NCBI GenBank assembly: GCA_006384855.1
Contig: VCJN01000151.1
Location: 207,966 to 271,965 of the forward strand
DNA length: 64,000 bases
Direction of reading: 5' to 3'
Source of the DNA: Tetraselmis striata
Lineage: Eukaryota > Chlorophyta > Chlorodendrophyceae > Chlorodendrales > Chlorodendraceae
The notes beneath the pieces are model-generated. The model ran no database searches, was not told the origin of the DNA, and saw only the letters and a program-made list of their open reading frames with translations. Numbering within the stretch: position 1 is the first letter of the stretch; every line of letters starts with the position of its first letter. Below are positions 10,301-54,290 of this stretch, piece after piece. The translations under genes and the position numbers were made by a program.

Positions 10301-10520
10301 TGCAGCTTTATTGAAGTTGCACGAAACGTTGTACTACGCGGTAGTCTCGTGTTGATTGCGCTTTTGTAATCCAAACCAGCAGTTCTGGGGAACTGCCCTT
10401 TTTGTAATTCACACCAGTACGCGCCTACCAGTGGGGTTTAGGCAGCTTTATTGAAGTTGCCCGTAACGTTGTACTACGCGGTAGTCTCTTGTTGCTTGCG
10501 CTTTTGTAATCCAAACCAGT
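10301..10520 (+). repeat. two copies of a LINE-tail-like repeat
   Basis: A unit of about 78 bases (GCAGCTTTATTGAAGTTGC through CTTTTGTAATCCAAACCAG) occurs at 10301-10378 and again at 10441-10519. Between them lies CTGGGGAACTGCCCTTTTTG then TAATTCACACCAGTAC, which is the same 3' tail found on the two LINE copies (14786-14820 and 54120-54155). These are best read as short 3'-end fragments or SINEs borrowing that LINE tail. Confidence 0.7.
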
Positions 10521-10535
10521 ACGCGGTAGGCACTC

Positions 10536-10800
10536 GCTCGCGGCACTTGGTTACGACTGCTACGCCTCGCCTGCGGCGGGCAGCTACGACTACGGCGCGG
10601 CGGGCGGCTCCAGGAGCGGCGACATCGCGGCGGCACCCGGTGTTTTCTCGCTCGCGGCAGTTAGTTACGACTGCTACGCGGCTTGCCTGGGGCGGGCAGG
10701 TACGACTACGGTGCGGCGGGCGGCTCTAGGAGCGGCGACATCGCGGCGGCACCCGGTATTTTCTCGCTCGCGGCAATTAGTTACGACTGCTACGCGGCCC
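10536..10800 (+). repeat. about 118-bp tandem repeat
   Basis: A unit running through GTTACGACTGCTACGC, GGGCAGCTACGACTACGG, CGGCGACATCGCGGCGGCAC and TTCTCGCTCGCGGCA occurs twice in full (about 10546-10663 and 10664-10780) and starts a third time. It is highly similar between copies, so recent. It has no recognised coding role. Confidence 0.8.
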
Positions 10801-11345
10801 GCTTTATATGGCCGACGACATGCGGACGACATGCGGTGTGGTGGGCAGTGGGGCGCACCCTATGTGGCCTACGTCCTGTCGGCGCAAACTTCCACCGAGA
10901 CATGGGCTTCTGGGGCTCCACATTGAGGCGAGGGAGAAGCAAGAGCATCAGCGGGCGACTGCGGCGACCCAGCGCGACGGGAAGCACAAGAAGCGGACGA
11001 AGCGACACCCTCCATCTTGACCTTTGCTGGCTTGTTCTTTGCGTGCCTGCCTTATGTGGATGGCGCAAGGCTGTGTGTAAGCGTGACCTCCATGTTTATG
11101 CTTTGCCCCTTGCCCTCTACTCAGGCCAAGGTTCCACCTGTTCCCTCGAGACCTCGGGGACCCGCGTGCGGTGCTGGAGGCTGCACCGGGTCCTGGCCAG
11201 TGGAATCGCACGCCCCCCTCCCCACACAGGGAGTAGGGTTGCGTGTCCGTTATGGCCCGAGCTGGTTTACATCCCCCACTTGCAACCGAGGGTGCACCCC
11301 TCCCATTGCGGCAGGCGGCTTGCCCGGCGTGAGGCAGTGCGTGCA
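10801..11345. other. spacer before the group I intron, no gene recognised
   Basis: Open frames cross this stretch on the plus strand (10683-11399, 11017-11499), but none shows a known domain and they run on into the structured intron. The exon context of the group I intron must lie at the right end of this stretch, yet it does not look like rDNA or any gene I recognise. Confidence 0.35.
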
Positions 11346-11922
11346 GCCGTGCGTCGGGGTCAAACCTTGCCGTCTAGTCCACTCAGCTCGAATCCCTGAT
11401 GGAGCTGTTTTTCCAGGGCCGGGCTCTCAAATCGCGAGGAAGCCCTTTGAGCCCCCGCTCCCACCCTCCAGCACAACACTTGAGGTTCCGAGAGATTGAG
11501 CAACTCGGGTATGGGCACAACGCGGGAGAGGGGCACGGAGATACACTTCCGTGCAGCGACTGGTTCCCCAAATACCAGCGCCACCCCAGAATCGGGCCAC
11601 ACGCAGCCAAGGCCCTCCACCTATGGCCGAGTGTAGAGCCGTGCCTGGCTATGACACGCAATATGCTCGGAGGGGAAGGTTCAGAGACTAGACAGGAGCC
11701 GGTGCGGCGGGGCACCGCCGTGCTCAAGATATAGTCCCTCACCACATGAGAGGGTGCATGTAGTGAGCTCTTCAGGGAGGGGTGAGCTACAGGGGCTAGG
11801 CCGTTCCTAGCTATGTGAGATCGTATGATATGGAGCTAGTATGGGAGTGAGCTCCGCGGCTCGGGGGTGGAACGGCATGCCGCCCTCGTGACTGCCCATG
11901 TTTGTAAATATATGATCTCGAG
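11346..11922 (+). ncRNA. group IC1 self-splicing intron (copy 1)
   Basis: The conserved core of a nuclear-type group IC1 ribozyme is present in order. P3 5' is CCGGGCTCTC (11419-11428), then J3/4-P4 is AAATCGCGAGGAAG. A P5abc-like region contains GGGTATGG, and a P5/P6-area hairpin is CTGGTTCCCCAAATACCAG. Next comes ACGCAGCCAAGGCCCTCC (11601-11618), nearly identical to the Tetrahymena CACGCAGCCAAGUCCU segment. P7 5' lies in GGTTCAGAGACTAGAC (11679-11693), P3 3' in GGAGCCGG, a P8 hairpin follows, and P7 3' lies in AAGATATAGTCCC (11725-11737). P9 is CCCTC pairing with GAGGG (11735-11754). P3 pairs with one bulged G. The exact 5' and 3' splice sites and the host exon are not determined; neither flank resembles rDNA. 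No homing endonuclease frame was recognised. Confidence 0.88.
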
Positions 11923-12392
11923 GCTCCCACCCTCCAGCACAACACTTGAGGTTCCGAGAGGTTGAGCAACTCGGGTATGGGCACAACGCGGGAGAGGGGC
12001 ACGGAGATACACTTCCGTGCAGCGCCTGGTTCCCCAAATACCAGCGCCACCCCAGAATCGGGCCACACGCAGCCAAGGCCCTCCACCTATGGCCGAGTGT
12101 AGAGCCGTGCCTGGCTATGACACGAAATATGCTCGGAGGGGAAGGTTCGGAGACTAGACGGGAGCCGGTGCGGCGGGGCACCGCCGTGCTCAAGATATAG
12201 TCCCTCACCACATGAGAGGGTGCATGTAGTGAGCTCCCCAGGGAGGGGTGAACTACATGGGCTGGGCCGTCACTAGCTATGTGAGATCGTATAATGTGGA
12301 GCTAGTAAGGGAGTGAGCTCCGCGGCTCGGGGGTTGGTGGAACGGCATGCCGCCCTCCTGACTGCCCATGTTTGTAAATATATGATCTCGAG
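11923..12392 (+). ncRNA. group IC1 intron, tandem partial copy 2 (lacks the 5' part)
   Basis: A direct duplication of 11457-11922, about 97 percent alike by eye. It starts inside P5 (GCTCCCACCCTCC) and so lacks P1-P4 5' strands. It keeps the ACGCAGCCAAGG segment, P7 5' (GGTTCGGAGACTAGAC), P3 3' in the form GGGAGCCGG, P7 3' (AAGATATAGTCCC, 12192-12204) and P9. It cannot fold alone into a complete ribozyme. It ends at TATATGATCTCGAG, where a LINE copy begins. Confidence 0.85.
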
Positions 12393-14905
12393 GCACCATC
12401 ATCCAACGCCACATCGATTGCTCTCCACTACACCCTGTCATCCCTGCGCTCCTAGCCTCCCTCTCCACGGGTTCGTATCTGGTCGTGGACGACCGGTCCG
12501 CCCCTGTGCGGTCGGAGGACGGCGTACAACAGGGCGCACCTTTGGCCACGACTTCCTTTTGCGTCGCGATTCACCCCGAGGTGCAGCAGTGTGACAGCAC
12601 GTTGGAGGTCACTGACGGGGCGGCGCGTTTCAACGCCGACGATGGATTTTTGGTGGGCCTCCCGGAGCACGTTTGACCGTCTCTTCACGCCTTCCGCACG
12701 TCCATCAAGGCGTCCGTGGGGCTTGAGGTGCGCTTCGACAAGATGCAGGCGTACATGGCAGGCATGGAGGCCGCGCGGCGTGAGGCTCCGGCCGACATCG
12801 AGTGGCTCGAGCTAGATGGCCATCACGGCATCGCGGTCCTCAACGTGCCGCTCGGATCGCCAGAGTATGTGCAGACGTACATGCGCGGCAAGGCGGAGGA
12901 GCTACATGAGGAGGTGGACGCTAGCCTGAGCAATCTCCTATCTGCCAAGCCCAGCCGTCGGTACACCCACGCCATGCATAACCACGCATGGACCCTGCTC
13001 AAGCACTGCATGCAACACAGGGCGGGGTATTGGCTCCGCAATTGCCTCCCGTCCGAGGTGGAGGCCTTTGCGGAGGCGGTGGATGCCACCATCCTCGCGG
13101 CGGTCAAGCGGGTGCTAGGGGTCTCGGTTGATCCCTCCACGTACGGCACCGACACCAACCCGGTGGTCACCGATTTCCTTGCGGAGCTTTTGCACGACCC
13201 CGACCCCATGGCAGCGGAGGTGGCTACTTTGAGCGAGGATGCAGTGGCCATGGCGCGCAGCAGGCTTCACCTCCCCACTCGGTTGAAGGGCGCTGGCATC
13301 CGCCGCATGGCTACCGTTCGTGATGCCGCCTTTATCGGCTCCATGAATGACATCCTCCCAAGGTTCCTAACTAGGAACTCCGGCACTAACACCCCCACCT
13401 CTTGTTACTTTGACCCACAGCTCGGGTCCGTACTTGGCCGAGGCAGCTTCAACGCAACTTCTTCCGCCCGCCGGTGTGACCACTTTCTCAACGATGCTCA
13501 TGGGTCGGACAGCTACGCCGCGGAGATGCGCGAGGCGTGGGGCCGCCTCCAAGCGGCTACTGCTGGCCATCTCAGCGATGCAGATGCGCGCGTGATGGAG
13601 CGGGAAGTGGAGACTGCGTCGGGCTCACTAAAGGAGCTGACGGCATTTATAGACCAGGCCAACAACTCTCGGCTTCAAAATGAGGTGTGTGTGCGCTCTC
13701 CCTGTCACAAGTAGGGAACGGATCTTGTTCAACCAGCTCGACGCGGCGTCGGGCATGTGGACAGTGGCCATCCCCACCGCGCGGACGGTCATGACTCCGC
13801 ATGAGCTGCGGGAGGTCGCTGTCGGGTACTTTTTTCTGCCTAGCCTGTGCTTGGCCCCGGTGGCTGGGAGCCAGATCATTCTGCCCTCGACAGAGCACAA
13901 TCTTGTCACTGTTGACCTGTACGGCGACGCGCTCATGAACCTCCCGGCGCCTAGAGACGCCCACTGGCGTGTACAGCACGACGCTATCGCAGTCGCCTTC
14001 CGCTATCACGGTGTTCACGACCTAGGTATCGCTATACGGCGGGAGGTGGATGACTTGTTCCAGTGCCTCACGGCAGTGCCTCTCGGCAACACCGTACCCA
14101 GGGATGAACTCAAGGACCTAGTGCCGGATGCATAGCTCTCCCTTCCGGCGTTCAACGTCGTGACCGGGAGCTCTGATCCCTTGAGCTTGAAGTCCACGCT
14201 GCTGGAGTTAAAGACTATGCGGTACGGGGTCAAGTATATTGCAGTGCCCCGGCCATGGCTGTGGATCGGTTTGAGCGCGCGCTCCCTGTTGGGCGACATA
14301 CAACGGGGGTTGGCAGCGCGGGATGCGGCGTGGCACAACACGGAGCCCGGACAGAAGGGTCCTCTTCGAGACATCCTGGATATGTCGGAGTACACGGGCA
14401 TGGTCTTCGGCACAGTGGGTGAGGTGAGCAAGGGGGTGCGCCGCACAGTGCGCGGTATCGCATGCTTGGCTGCGGATCGGGGTGCCCTCTCATCGCGGGG
14501 CACTCGGTGCACCACCCGGGCTCACCAGGAGGCCGTGCTCACATGAAATTTCCTCGGGGTCCTGAGCTTGGTGGCCGCTCGAGAGCGCGCTCGCTGCCTC
14601 ATCAGACGGCGCAGATTCGTCTGCCATCCCGTTGCTGAAGCTGCACAGCACGTCCGAGGATTACCCTCACACACGTGCACGCGTGGCCCGGACTCTGAAC
14701 CGTGTGCGCATCACTCATCCATCCCGCCTCATGCGGGATGCGGGCCGCTTTTATTAGGCGGCTTGCTGTGTTGATTTTCAAATTCTGGGGAACTGCCCTT
14801 TTTGTAAGTCACACCAGTACGGGTAATCCTTACCTTGATTTTTTAGTACTACTTTTAGTTGTAGGTGGATTTGTTACAACCTTTTTTGTAATTCACACCA
14901 GTACG
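12393..14905 (+). mobile_element. LINE copy, 5'-truncated, degraded
   Basis: Matches the copy at 50.6-54.3 kb from its position 51744 to the 3' tail, about 95 percent alike by eye, with the 5' part missing as usual for truncated target-primed insertion. It carries the reverse transcriptase from GVQQGAPLATTSF through FNADDG to the C-terminal nuclease-like region. The frame is broken: a Trp codon becomes TGA near 12675, two extra bases occur near 13690, a TAG lies at 14133-14135 and a TGA near 14544. The 3' end has two tandem TTTTGTAAxTCACACCAGTAC tails (about 14800 and 14885). The 5' junction is with the group I intron repeat; the 3' junction is with a hAT relic. No target-site duplication was identified. 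Confidence 0.9.
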
Positions 14906-50606: not shown

Positions 50607-53600
50607 GGCGCCGCGTGGGCGCCGAGGATTGACGCCGCAGCCAGGTCGCTCCAGCCCGCCCGCGTCAGGCACCACCCGGCCGATGTGCTGGCTTTCACCG
50701 AGGTCGCCGCCGCGTGGCTAGCCAAGGCGCGCGCCGTGTTGGCCGAGCGGCACCGCCGTCGGGGGGCGCGCCGCGCCGGTGGAGCTGGACAATCGTCGGT
50801 GCTGCCGTCGCCCGCACTGCCGTCCGTCGCTGCGTTCCGGGGCGTCGCAGCGCCCCCGGTTGTTGCCCCCACGCCGCCAAAGGGCCCCGAGCCGAGGCGG
50901 ACGGCGGCGGCTGCAAGCCTTGGCGTGGCGCTTCCGCGCTTTCGCGGAGAGGCGCATGACCGAACACGTGCGCTCATGGGACGACGCGCGCACTGAGGCG
51001 TTCTACGCCGGACATGCCCGCCAGCGTCGGACGGACGCCGATCTCTTTGCGGCGCTGCTCGTGGGCACCGCGGACACCGTTGTGGCGTTGGTGGAGGACG
51101 GAGAGCTCTCCCGAGCGGCGGGCCGACTATCTTCTAAGGGTATGGGCGACTTGTCCGATCCTGCTATCCTCGCCCAGCTGCGCGACAAGCACCCGTCCCG
51201 TAGCCACCCGATCCCAGACGCCGCGTATGCCATTCCGGTGGACGAGGCCGCCCTGACGGTGGACATGCGCGTGCCGTACCAGCAACTCAAGCAGCACGTG
51301 GCGGCGGGGCCCTCAGGCATGCGCAACGAGTATCTCCGCTGCTTGGTGGGCGAATACGCCCCGGCGTCCGGGCCCGCGGCAGTCCGCGCCATGTCGGAGG
51401 TTGCCTCCATGTACCTCCAAGGCCGCCTGCCCGGGTGGTTCAACCGGCTCTTCGCCTCTGCTAGGCTCGTGGCACCTGTCAAGAAGCTAGGCGAGGGGAG
51501 GGCCCCGGACGTGCGGCCTGTGGCAATCGGGGAGGCGGAGCGGCGCGCAGCGGAGCGGGCAGTGGTTGACAACATGAAGGAGGCATACGTGTCGGTGCTC
51601 GCTCCATCTCAGCTCGGCGTTGGCATTCCCGCGGGCAACTCTGTGCTCATCCACGGCGTCCGGCTCATCGCCGAGAAGCTTGGCCCACGTGCCGTCATCG
51701 TCCACACAGACCTTCGCAACGCTTACAACGAAGCATGGCGCCGCACCATCATCCAGCGCCACATCGATTGTTCTCCACTACACCCTGTCATCCCTGCGCT
51801 CCTAGCCTCCCTCTCCACGGACTCGTATCTGGTCGTGGACGACCGGTCCGCCCCTCTGCGGTCGGAGGACGGCGTGCAACAGGGCGCACCTTTGGCCACG
51901 ACTTCCTTTTGCGTCGCGATTCACCCCGAGGTGCAGCAGTGTGATACCACGTTGGAGGTCAATGACGGGGCGGCGCGCTTCAACGCCGACGATGGAATTT
52001 TGGTGGGCCTTCCGGAGCACGTTTGGCCGGCTCTTCACGCCTTCCGCACGTCCATCAAGGCGTCCGTGGGGCTTGAGGTGCGCTTCGACAAGATGCAGGC
52101 GTATAGCGCAGACATGGAGGCGGCGCGGCGTGAGGCTCCGGCCGACATCGAGTGGCCAGAGCTAGATGGCCATCACGGCATCGCGGTCCTCAACGTGCCG
52201 CTCGGATCGCCAGAGTATGTGCAGGCGTACATGCGCGGCAAGGCGGAGGAGCTACGAGAGGAGGTGGACGCTAGCCTGAGCAAGCTTCTGTCTGCCAAGC
52301 CCAGCCGTCGGTACACCCACGCCTTGCATCACCACGCATGGGCCCTGCTCAAGCATTGCATGCAACACAAGGCGGGGTATTGGCTCCGCAATTGTCTTCC
52401 GTCCGAGGTGGAGGCCTTTGCGGAGGCGGTGGATGCCACCATCCTCGCGGCGGTCGAACGGGTGCTAGGGGTCTCTTTTGATCCCTCCACGTACGGCACC
52501 GACACCAATCCGGTGGTCACCGATTTCTTGGCGGAGCTTTTGCACGACCCCGACCCCATGGCAGCGGAGGTGGCTACCTTGAGCGAGGATGCAGTGGCCA
52601 GGGCGCGCAGCAGGCTTCACCTCCCCACTCGATTGAAGGGAGCTGGCATCCGCCGCATGGCTACCGTTCGTGATGCCGCCTTCATCGGCTGCATGAACGC
52701 CATCCTCCCAAGGTTCCTGACTAGGAACTCCGGCACCAACACCCCCACCCCTGGTTTCTTCGACCCACAGCTCGGGTCCGTACTTGGCCGAGGCAGCTTC
52801 AACGCAAATTCTTCCGCCCGCCAGTATGACCACTTCCTCAACGATGCTCATGGGTCGGACAGCTACGCCGCGGAGATGCGCGAGGCGTGGGGCCGCCTCC
52901 AAGCGGCTACTGCTGGCCATCTCGGCGACGCAGATGCACGCCAGATGGAGCGGGAAGTGGAGGCTGCGCCGGGCTCGCAAAAGGAGCTAACGGCATTTCT
53001 AGACCAGGCCAACAACTCCCGGCTTCGAAATGAGGTGTGCGCTCTCCCTGCCACATGTAGGGAACGGATCTTGTTCAACCAGCTCGACGCGGCGTCAGGC
53101 ATGTGGACAGTGGCCATCCCCACCGCGCGGACAGCCATGACTCCGCATGAGCTGCGAGAGGTCGCTGCCGGGTACTTCTTTCTGCCTAGCCCGTGCTTGG
53201 CCCCGGTGGTTGGGTGCCAGATCATTCTGCCCTCGACGGAGCACAACCCCGTCATTGTTGATCTATACGGCGACGCGCTCATGAACCTCCCGGCGCCTGG
53301 AGACGCTCACTGGCGTGTACAGCACGACGCTATCGCAGATGCCTTCCGCGATCACTGTGTTCACGACCTAGGTATCGCGGTACGGCGGGAGGTGGATGAC
53401 TTGTTCCAGCAGGCAGTGCCTCTCGGCAACACCGTACCCCGGGATGAACTCAAGGACCTAGTGCCGGACGCAGAGCTCTCCCTTCCGGCGTTCAACGTCG
53501 TGACCGGGAGCTATGATCCCCGGAGCTTGAAGTCCACGCTGCTAGAGTTCAAGACTATGCGGTACGGGGTCAAGTACACTTCGGTGCCCCGGGCCACAGC

Positions 53601-54290
53601 TGTGGATCGGTTTGAGCGCTCCCTGTTGGGCGACATACAACGGGGGTTGGCTGCGCGGGACGCGGCGTGGCACAACACGGAGCCCGGACAGAAGGGTCCT
53701 CTTCGAGACATCCTGGATATGTCGGAGTACACGGGCATGGTCTTCGGCACAGTGGGTGAGGTGAGCAAGGGGGTGCACCGCACAGTGCGTGGTATCGCAT
53801 GCTTGGCTGCGGACCAGGGTGCCCTCTCATCGCGGGGCACTCGGTGCATCACCCGGGCTCACCAGGAGGCCTTGCTCGCAAGAGATTTCCTCGGGGTCCT
53901 GAGCTTGGTGGCCGCTCGAGAGCGTGCTCGCTGCCTCATCAGACGGCGCAGATTCGTCTCCCATCCCGTTGCTGAAGCTGCACAGCACGTCCGAGGATCA
54001 CCTACACACACACGTGCTCGCGTGGCCCGGACTCTGAACCGTGTGCGCATCACTCATCCATCCCGCCTTATGCGGGATGCGGGCCGCTTTTAGGCGGCTT
54101 GCTGTGTTGATTTTCTAATTCTGGGGAACTGCCCTTTTTGTAATTCACACCAGTACGAGTTGTCATGCAACGAGTCGCTACTGGTAGTCGCTACCTGCAC
54201 GTGTATTGATCTTTTAGTGCTGCTTGTAGGGGTGGATTTTTACGACTGGCCCTTTTGTAATATATTCACACCAGTACTACCAGGTACTAC
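50607..54290 (+). mobile_element. non-LTR retrotransposon (LINE), near-intact ORF, RLE-like C-terminus
   Basis: Coding DNA begins directly after the telomere repeats and the 3' end carries two TTTTGTAATxTTCACACCAGTAC tails (about 54140 and 54265). It shares about 95 percent of its sequence by eye with the 5'-truncated copy at 12393-14905. The main frame is intact, so activity is plausible. The 5' end may still be truncated: open coding-like sequence in another frame continues up to the telomere tract. The clade is not assigned; Dualen/RandI, Utopia or a related RLE-bearing group are candidates. Confidence 0.88.
50956..54093 (+). CDS. LINE reverse transcriptase with C-terminal PD-(D/E)XK-like region
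   Basis: From ATG at 50956 (the frame is open from 50779) an uninterrupted protein of about 1045 residues runs to TAG. Reverse transcriptase motifs in order: AAGPSGMRNEYL, RPVAIGEAERR, LGVGIPAGNS (about 51612-51641), VIVHTDLRNAYNEAWRR (catalytic Asp), GVQQGAPLATTSF, and FNADDGILVGL at about 51980, a variant of the YADD box. Far downstream, LVPDAELSLPAFNVV (about 53458) and STLLEFKTMRYGVKY (about 53533) fit the PD...ExK pattern of a restriction-like endonuclease, inferred from pattern only. No APE endonuclease is seen upstream. The product would act at target-primed insertion. The ORF is undamaged, unlike the copy at 12.4 kb. Confidence 0.85.
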   Translation: MTEHVRSWDDARTEAFYAGHARQRRTDADLFAALLVGTADTVVALVEDGELSRAAGRLSSKGMGDLSDPAILAQLRDKHPSRSHPIPDAAYAIPVDEAALTVDMRVPYQQLKQHVAAGPSGMRNEYLRCLVGEYAPASGPAAVRAMSEVASMYLQGRLPGWFNRLFASARLVAPVKKLGEGRAPDVRPVAIGEAERRAAERAVVDNMKEAYVSVLAPSQLGVGIPAGNSVLIHGVRLIAEKLGPRAVIVHTDLRNAYNEAWRRTIIQRHIDCSPLHPVIPALLASLSTDSYLVVDDRSAPLRSEDGVQQGAPLATTSFCVAIHPEVQQCDTTLEVNDGAARFNADDGILVGLPEHVWPALHAFRTSIKASVGLEVRFDKMQAYSADMEAARREAPADIEWPELDGHHGIAVLNVPLGSPEYVQAYMRGKAEELREEVDASLSKLLSAKPSRRYTHALHHHAWALLKHCMQHKAGYWLRNCLPSEVEAFAEAVDATILAAVERVLGVSFDPSTYGTDTNPVVTDFLAELLHDPDPMAAEVATLSEDAVARARSRLHLPTRLKGAGIRRMATVRDAAFIGCMNAILPRFLTRNSGTNTPTPGFFDPQLGSVLGRGSFNANSSARQYDHFLNDAHGSDSYAAEMREAWGRLQAATAGHLGDADARQMEREVEAAPGSQKELTAFLDQANNSRLRNEVCALPATCRERILFNQLDAASGMWTVAIPTARTAMTPHELREVAAGYFFLPSPCLAPVVGCQIILPSTEHNPVIVDLYGDALMNLPAPGDAHWRVQHDAIADAFRDHCVHDLGIAVRREVDDLFQQAVPLGNTVPRDELKDLVPDAELSLPAFNVVTGSYDPRSLKSTLLEFKTMRYGVKYTSVPRATAVDRFERSLLGDIQRGLAARDAAWHNTEPGQKGPLRDILDMSEYTGMVFGTVGEVSKGVHRTVRGIACLAADQGALSSRGTRCITRAHQEALLARDFLGVLSLVAARERARCLIRRRRFVSHPVAEAAQHVRGSPTHTRARVARTLNRVRITHPSRLMRDAGRF

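Follow-up and report, generated by a model that had tools for sequence, protein, structure and literature searches.

What is a group I ribozyme doing at a locus of Tetraselmis striata that is full of mobile elements and shows no resemblance to rRNA on either side? The window, that is, the whole stretch of 64 kb analysed here (contig C118 in our genome searches), had been read in a preliminary description as carrying one group IC1 self-splicing intron at 11346-12392, outside rDNA or any known gene. Three origins had been offered for it: a transposed rDNA fragment, an intron reverse-spliced into another transcript, or an independent mobile repeat.

Judged by covariance matches and the alignment of copies, the group I core is genuine and presumably catalytic. 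The RF00028 model matches the window at 11351-11758 (plus strand) with 29.2 bits (E 3.2e-5). This is below the gathering score of 50, which is reached nowhere within the 64-kb window, but three of the four genomic relatives scanned (L005-L008) pass it, namely L005 (53.6 bits), L006 (52.8 bits) and L008 (52.2 bits). From the RF00028 alignment of L005 and the alignment of copies, P3, P4, P5, P6, P7, P8 and P9 can all be named, in the order expected of group I and with P7 adjoining the 3´ strand of P3. The catalytic core thus delimited spans 11422-11758 (+) and includes P3 (11422-11428 with 11694-11700), P7 (11686-11690 with 11732-11736) and P8 (11701-11724), besides P4-P6 and P9. The presence and order of these elements, claimed in the preliminary description, held beyond this locus: in an alignment of 30 copies (79-100% identical to L060, on whose row alone the helices were named), each helix from P3 to P9 is paired in 89-98% of cells and the remaining hairpins in 87-96%, figures that stand without a slid control.

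Around the core, helix alignment and fold prediction place hairpins at the positions of P2.1, of a P5abc-type extension and of P9.1/P9.2. A P2-like hairpin of up to 13 bp (11323-11358, +; copy alignment and fold) follows the candidate guide discussed below. The 3´ domain with hairpins of P9.1-P9.2 type occupies 11759-11922 (+), as defined by copy alignment, junctions and fold. Its final helix, GAGATCGTAT/ATATGATCTC, stops 3 nt short of the cut point; these three nucleotides are GAG (11920-11922) and the terminal G is 11922. The predicted fold of the whole region is weakly better than that of 20 shuffles (z -1.54). RNAalifold over-predicts on 17 close copies and was left out of the evidence.

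The interval 11346-12392 proved to be composite. It consists of a long ribozyme copy ending at 11922 and a second, 5´-truncated copy at 11923-12392 (+), joined at CCCCC^GCTCCC of the element's own sequence and lacking the 5´ strands of P1-P4. The end originally proposed was well chosen, 12392 being the ribozyme's conserved final G; the single unit and the start at 11346 had to be given up, the latter since homology to other copies extends upstream to a block of monomers at about 10533. Directly after the second terminal G follows a 5´-truncated LINE, LINE-A (12393-14819, +), comprising a reverse transcriptase ORF and the 3´ end; in the intact LINE, the point of joining reads GCGCC^GCACC. It is 94% identical to the LINE-A copy in L047, whose ORF matches RVT_1 (E 4.5e-10). 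The 3´ flank is therefore a LINE reverse-transcriptase gene, and the locus does not lie outside known genes. Another LINE-A piece lies in the window at 51643-54155, where it is 99% identical to L047 and continues upstream; no ribozyme match was found at it.

By homology limits, the whole chimeric insert (element, second partial ribozyme and truncated LINE-A) spans 10524-14819 (+). The word ACCAGTACG occurs at 10515-10523 and again at 14813-14821, but as a target-site duplication it is weak, because just its last 2 nt lie beyond the LINE's own 3´ end. Repeat detection and comparison of loci show that the element begins with tandem monomers of about 116 bp (10533-10798, +), variable in number among copies, continues with a leader that may or may not contain an ORF, and ends with the ribozyme, the core forming the 3´ half. 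A 5´ boundary at 1176 bp in L060, considered as the element start, proved to be a truncation private to that locus. In the window, a 3´ remnant of the leader ORF remains (10822-11020, +, with TGA at 11018-11020), short of some 570 nt that other copies have. Some copies encode about 270 amino acids here. The leader ORF, the one part scanned in this respect, matches no Pfam family and hence no homing endonuclease domain was seen in it; one partial gene model is homologous. Many copies are without most of this ORF, so that it is apparently dispensable and does not seem to be needed.

Dispersed copies, which the preliminary description had proposed to look for, are abundant, and of its three origins the independent mobile repeat came nearest to the outcome. 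We searched 224 Mb of genome sequence, and the copy numbers are lower bounds, as such searches score the best candidates only. At least 45 matches were obtained for a 466-bp unit. A 20-nt pattern from the 3´ end of the element has 131 matches with at most two mismatches, versus none for the reversed pattern. On this evidence the family is a dispersed nuclear repeat built on a group I ribozyme, of which the window holds one copy. Two short exact element patterns found no match in viral contigs. Several gene models with Tetstr1/TSEL names match the protein of the accompanying LINE at 98-100% identity.

We saw no sign of a transposed rDNA fragment: the 3´ flanks that could be identified derive from LINEs or from the element. 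The sole 5.8S match above cut-off has no group I or large rRNA match within 1.5 kb. This match (L129, C870:181294) covers a full 5.8S rRNA, and neither SSU nor LSU rRNA matches occur within 1.5 kb on either side of it. The four best RF00028 matches in the genome (L001-L004 on contigs C780, C1557, C2317 and C1674; 78-84 bits) represent a different, small intron of about 205 bp in an LSU rRNA gene, to which the bacterial model fits. The contigs measure 23-25 kb; this intron presumably resides in an organelle and has no relation to the element.

What, then, lies downstream of the ribozyme? The common 3´ end of the element is CTCGAG^, and the sequence after it varies widely between loci. Identified 3´ flanks are internal pieces of at least three LINE families, LINE-A, LINE-B and LINE-C, or of the element itself. 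The LINE-B protein is related to that of LINE-A (E 3e-8) and the LINE-C protein to that of LINE-B (E 3e-7); neither the LINE-B nor the LINE-C protein has a Pfam match. If the element had inserted into LINEs, the upstream part of the same LINE should be met on its 5´ side, and this was found at none of the 19 loci with a mapped LINE tail. Four of these 19 have another ribozyme copy there, and three (L007, L017 and L027) have scattered, non-adjacent similarity to LINE reference loci. The loci are therefore chimeras and not insertions into LINEs. The same result bears on the notion of a plain group I intron that resides in LINE genes and has spread along with them. Adjacency to LINE coding sequence speaks for it, but a homing intron should sit between the two halves of its target gene, an arrangement seen at 0/19 loci; in addition, the junctions fall at 53 different sites and the 5´ ends vary. 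We consider this explanation highly improbable.

The chimeras were most likely inserted as units by LINE machinery, to judge from repeats at their termini. Among 11 loci tried, the LINE end was within reach in five, and in four of these five a common word recurs at the two ends, with a length of 13 nt in L012 (flush with neither end), 11 nt in L017, and 8 nt in L021 and L024. In the latter three, the initial bases possibly belong to the LINE's own end. LINE on LINE insertion was encountered as well. In L047 (1-4404), a reading frame of 1239 codons passes through the 5´ joint of LINE-A; the two reverse transcriptase domains in this ORF represent LINE-A inserted in LINE-B and bounded by the 12-nt repeat ATGCTACGACCA. 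Two LINE-B junctions, at L047 positions 4291 and 4144, are common to seven and five copies, respectively, which makes them either hot spots or families retrotransposed together with their tail.

The junctions between ribozyme and tail obey a simple rule. Loci were drawn from 100 of the 131 pattern matches, at least six of these 100 being left out, and from other loci of the genome searches. They gave 127 junction occurrences, some of which represent one place in overlapping loci; 86 are distinct by the first 60 nt of flank. Flank in common with another locus occurs in seven of 60 short loci. Among the matches listed, the base after CTCGAG^ is G in 84 of the 86 distinct junctions, and the first two bases are GY in 80 (GC 57, GT 23, GG 3, AG 2, GA 1). 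The two junctions with A after CTCGAG (L106 on C421 and L117 on C1440) have near-identical continuations and may reflect one shared event or the native 3´ flank. For 77 of the 86 junctions an intact counterpart could be found, and these correspond to 53 distinct sites; the nine junctions without a counterpart are omitted from the site count. At the intact sites, position -2 is C in 44, T in 7 and G in 2; position -1 is C in 47, G in 3, T in 2 and A in 1; position +1 is G in 46, T in 4, A in 2 and C in 1; and position +2 is C in 36, T in 15, G in 1 and A in 1. Beyond two bases on either side, composition is near background. Exact CCGY is present at 33 of the 53 sites and 20 deviate from it. For the first 39 sites, CCGY was found in 22 versus a background of 1.6% (P 1.6e-29), and shifts of 3-12 nt reduce it to 0 or 1 of 39. 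Because the +1 G belongs to most of the intact targets, the ribozyme ends, in group I style, at the G before the cut.

The 5´ ends of the insertions concerned provide a control. Exact CCGY occurs at 0/23 of them versus 33/53 at the junctions (Fisher P 7.6e-8), and three of the 23 have a CCGY at most two bases away. Five of these ends (L005, L006, L009, L011 and L017) are internal breaks, without which the count is 0/18; L037, which begins in the monomer block, is omitted. CCGY thus does not act on the LINE enzyme as a general signal to stop. A further comparison set 14 used CCGY sites against 64 unused ones, all from LINE-A or a portion of LINE-B. Over the 45 nt upstream, the predicted structure is weaker at used sites (-10.9 versus -14.0 kcal/mol, P 0.011), while predicted accessibility of the site itself does not differ in the same 14 and 64 sites (P 0.42).

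If the rule reflects base pairing, the ribozyme should contain a guide. In IC1 introns the guide is placed ahead of P2, and the element has GCGGCAGG at 11308-11315 (+), whose GCGG precedes the P2-like hairpin and is complementary to CC^GY. The degeneracy at positions -2 to +2 fits Watson-Crick and wobble pairing with GCGG, which we regard as the candidate guide. Pairing between target and guide is no longer than 4 bp, and a search by complementarity alone gives no unique answer, as many RCGG/RUGG stretches fit equally well or better. GCGGCAGG also pairs in cis with 11366-11373 in 94% of cells, and folding the window copy by itself predicts most of these pairs.

The cis partner overlaps a site at which the element appears to target itself or to be processed at its 5´ end, CCTTGCC^G (11365-11372, +, the cut falling between 11371 and 11372), as suggested by junctions on contig C1398. 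There, five ribozymes stand in a row, with four joints at CCTTGCC^GTCAAG; the 5´ end of L012 lies one nucleotide inside a site of this type. The five units group as u0, u1/u4 and u2/u3, where u1 and u4 differ in 6 columns, u2 and u3 in 5, and all other pairs in 12-29. Rolling-circle origin of the array was rejected, since differences of 12-29 columns exclude one common source molecule; the array probably drew on several source RNAs. Chains of ribozyme, ribozyme and LINE, such as that in the window, largely obey the junction rule, with the self joints of L023 and L032 departing from CCGY in the counterpart examined. At position 680 of L126, a diverged element copy ends with ...TTTACATCC and is followed by GTTTTTCGCG; this joint is also CC^G, yet the element is on its 5´ side.

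No forward splicing was seen in genomic copies: all 45 exact matches of GGGTCAAACCTTGCC and all 23 of ATGCTTTGCCCCTTGCC continue into the element. The patterns do not cover contexts that have T as their final base, and the counts take in exact matches only, the mismatch rows including some unrelated sequence. The interrupted copies L126-L128 gave no clear spliced product.

We suggest that the family is a non-autonomous nuclear retroelement formed around a group I ribozyme, which grafts itself onto LINE RNA and is copied by the LINE, and we assign this reading a probability of about 0.58. The order of events we propose is as follows. Element RNA, composed of leader and ribozyme, would end at the terminal G with a presumed free 3´ hydroxyl group. 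This G would attack LINE RNA at CC^GY, guided by GCGG through about 4 bp, and would attach the element to the LINE's 3´ portion. Such an attack would correspond to the first step, or one half, of reverse splicing; the earlier suggestion of an intron reverse-spliced into another transcript is close to it, albeit not identical. LINE reverse transcriptase would then start at the LINE 3´ end, copy the chimera and insert it, often with 5´ truncation. Transcripts of the new copy could be cut again at the same G and take a new LINE tail.

The most serious competitor leaves the joining to the LINE enzyme. The ribozyme would only trim its own 3´ end, and the reverse transcriptase would stall before CC and jump onto it. 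Group I ribozymes are known to hydrolyse their 3´ splice site as a side reaction, the repeats at both ends of some chimeras suit LINE insertion, and a stable hairpin is predicted with the repeated self site of C1398 at its base. There is also a precedent in the MINE elements of Magnaporthe, whose GCC^A/U rule was read as pausing during reverse transcription (PMC2104539). However, the rule in Tetraselmis is symmetric about the cut and two of its bases never enter the copy, and a stall would not lead one to expect pairing-like degeneracy at +1 and +2. The absence of exact CCGY from 23 5´ ends made by the same machinery, and the weaker predicted structure upstream of used sites, contrary to pausing at hairpins, point in the same direction. 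Template jumping seems to us the less likely of the two. Grafting is favoured because the rule extends to uncopied bases, 5´ ends lack it and used sites are less structured. It is held back because position -1 is C (47 of 53 intact sites), whereas group I introns normally have U just ahead of the 5´ splice site, and because pairing is limited to 4 bp. Also counting against it are the 20 intact sites that deviate from CCGY, the many alternative guide stretches, the equal accessibility of used and unused sites, the three 5´ ends close to a CCGY, the lack of forward-spliced genomic copies and the weak signal of the whole-region fold.

The same junctions would result if a host nuclease or RNA ligase cleaved LINE RNA at CCGY and ligated it to the 3´ end that the ribozyme had cut. 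Two extra activities would be required, however, the joint is nearly always at the ribozyme's terminal G, and we know of no host enzyme of this cut-and-join kind; this makes the explanation improbable. Repeats are prone both to assembly artefacts and to recombination at the level of DNA, but a single rule governs 86 different junctions spread over many contigs, and whole chimeras are flanked by repeats at some loci. Misassembly is therefore unlikely, and as an account of the whole family neither of these two processes is one we would defend.

The element can be compared with several known systems. In IStrons, too, a group I ribozyme is joined to a mobile element, but these are bacterial DNA transposons of IS605 type. 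SINEs and retrozymes are likewise non-autonomous retroelements, LINE-dependent or ribozyme-bearing; here, in contrast, the internal site at which the LINE 3´ part is attached varies, and the ribozyme is group I, not hammerhead. Nuclear rDNA group I introns of IC1 layout have a comparable P3-P9 core, terminal G, P2/P2.1-like region and long 3´ domain, whereas the Tetraselmis copies are dispersed beside LINE pieces and show no forward splicing in the genome.

In U6-L1 and other mammalian LINE chimeras we know of no ribozyme. They are similar in that a cellular RNA is joined to a 5´-truncated LINE, at sites thought to be random according to PMC2104539. A close parallel described in this source is MINE (WEIRD-MGL): an RNA of about 1.1 kb is fused at its 3´ end to 5´-truncated LINE pieces at many sites, with flanking direct repeats and no solo copies found. 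The paper lists 33 chimeric elements at 28 sites with the rule GCC^A/U and without micro-homology, ascribes the junctions to pausing or template switching, never mentions ribozyme or intron, and describes WEIRD as a non-coding RNA without assigned function; for transcribed MINEs it cites accessions EF585235-EF585237 (PMC2104539). The combination typical of MINE, a constant 5´ RNA fused to a 5´-truncated LINE at many sites, was found in the Tetraselmis element too; what differs is that a group I ribozyme makes up its 5´ part, with the joint at the terminal G and CC^GY as the motif. In the titles and abstract beginnings of open-licence literature that we searched, no group I ribozyme joined to LINEs is described.

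Spread of group I introns by reverse splicing at the RNA level, followed by reverse transcription, has long been suspected, with few genomic footprints. We put at even odds the broader proposition that a ribozyme has here turned into a mobile element by RNA grafting at CCGY, taking over the 3´ end and reverse transcriptase of a LINE in a natural form of reverse splicing, and that WEIRD is maybe a second, independent case. With dozens of junctions in one genome following one simple rule, spread at the RNA level becomes directly testable in vitro. If the assumptions above are true, the family would represent natural group I reverse splicing with dozens of genomic footprints, a new route for a parasite RNA to gain a LINE tail, and a reason to read anew those junction motifs that have been credited to pausing of reverse transcriptase.
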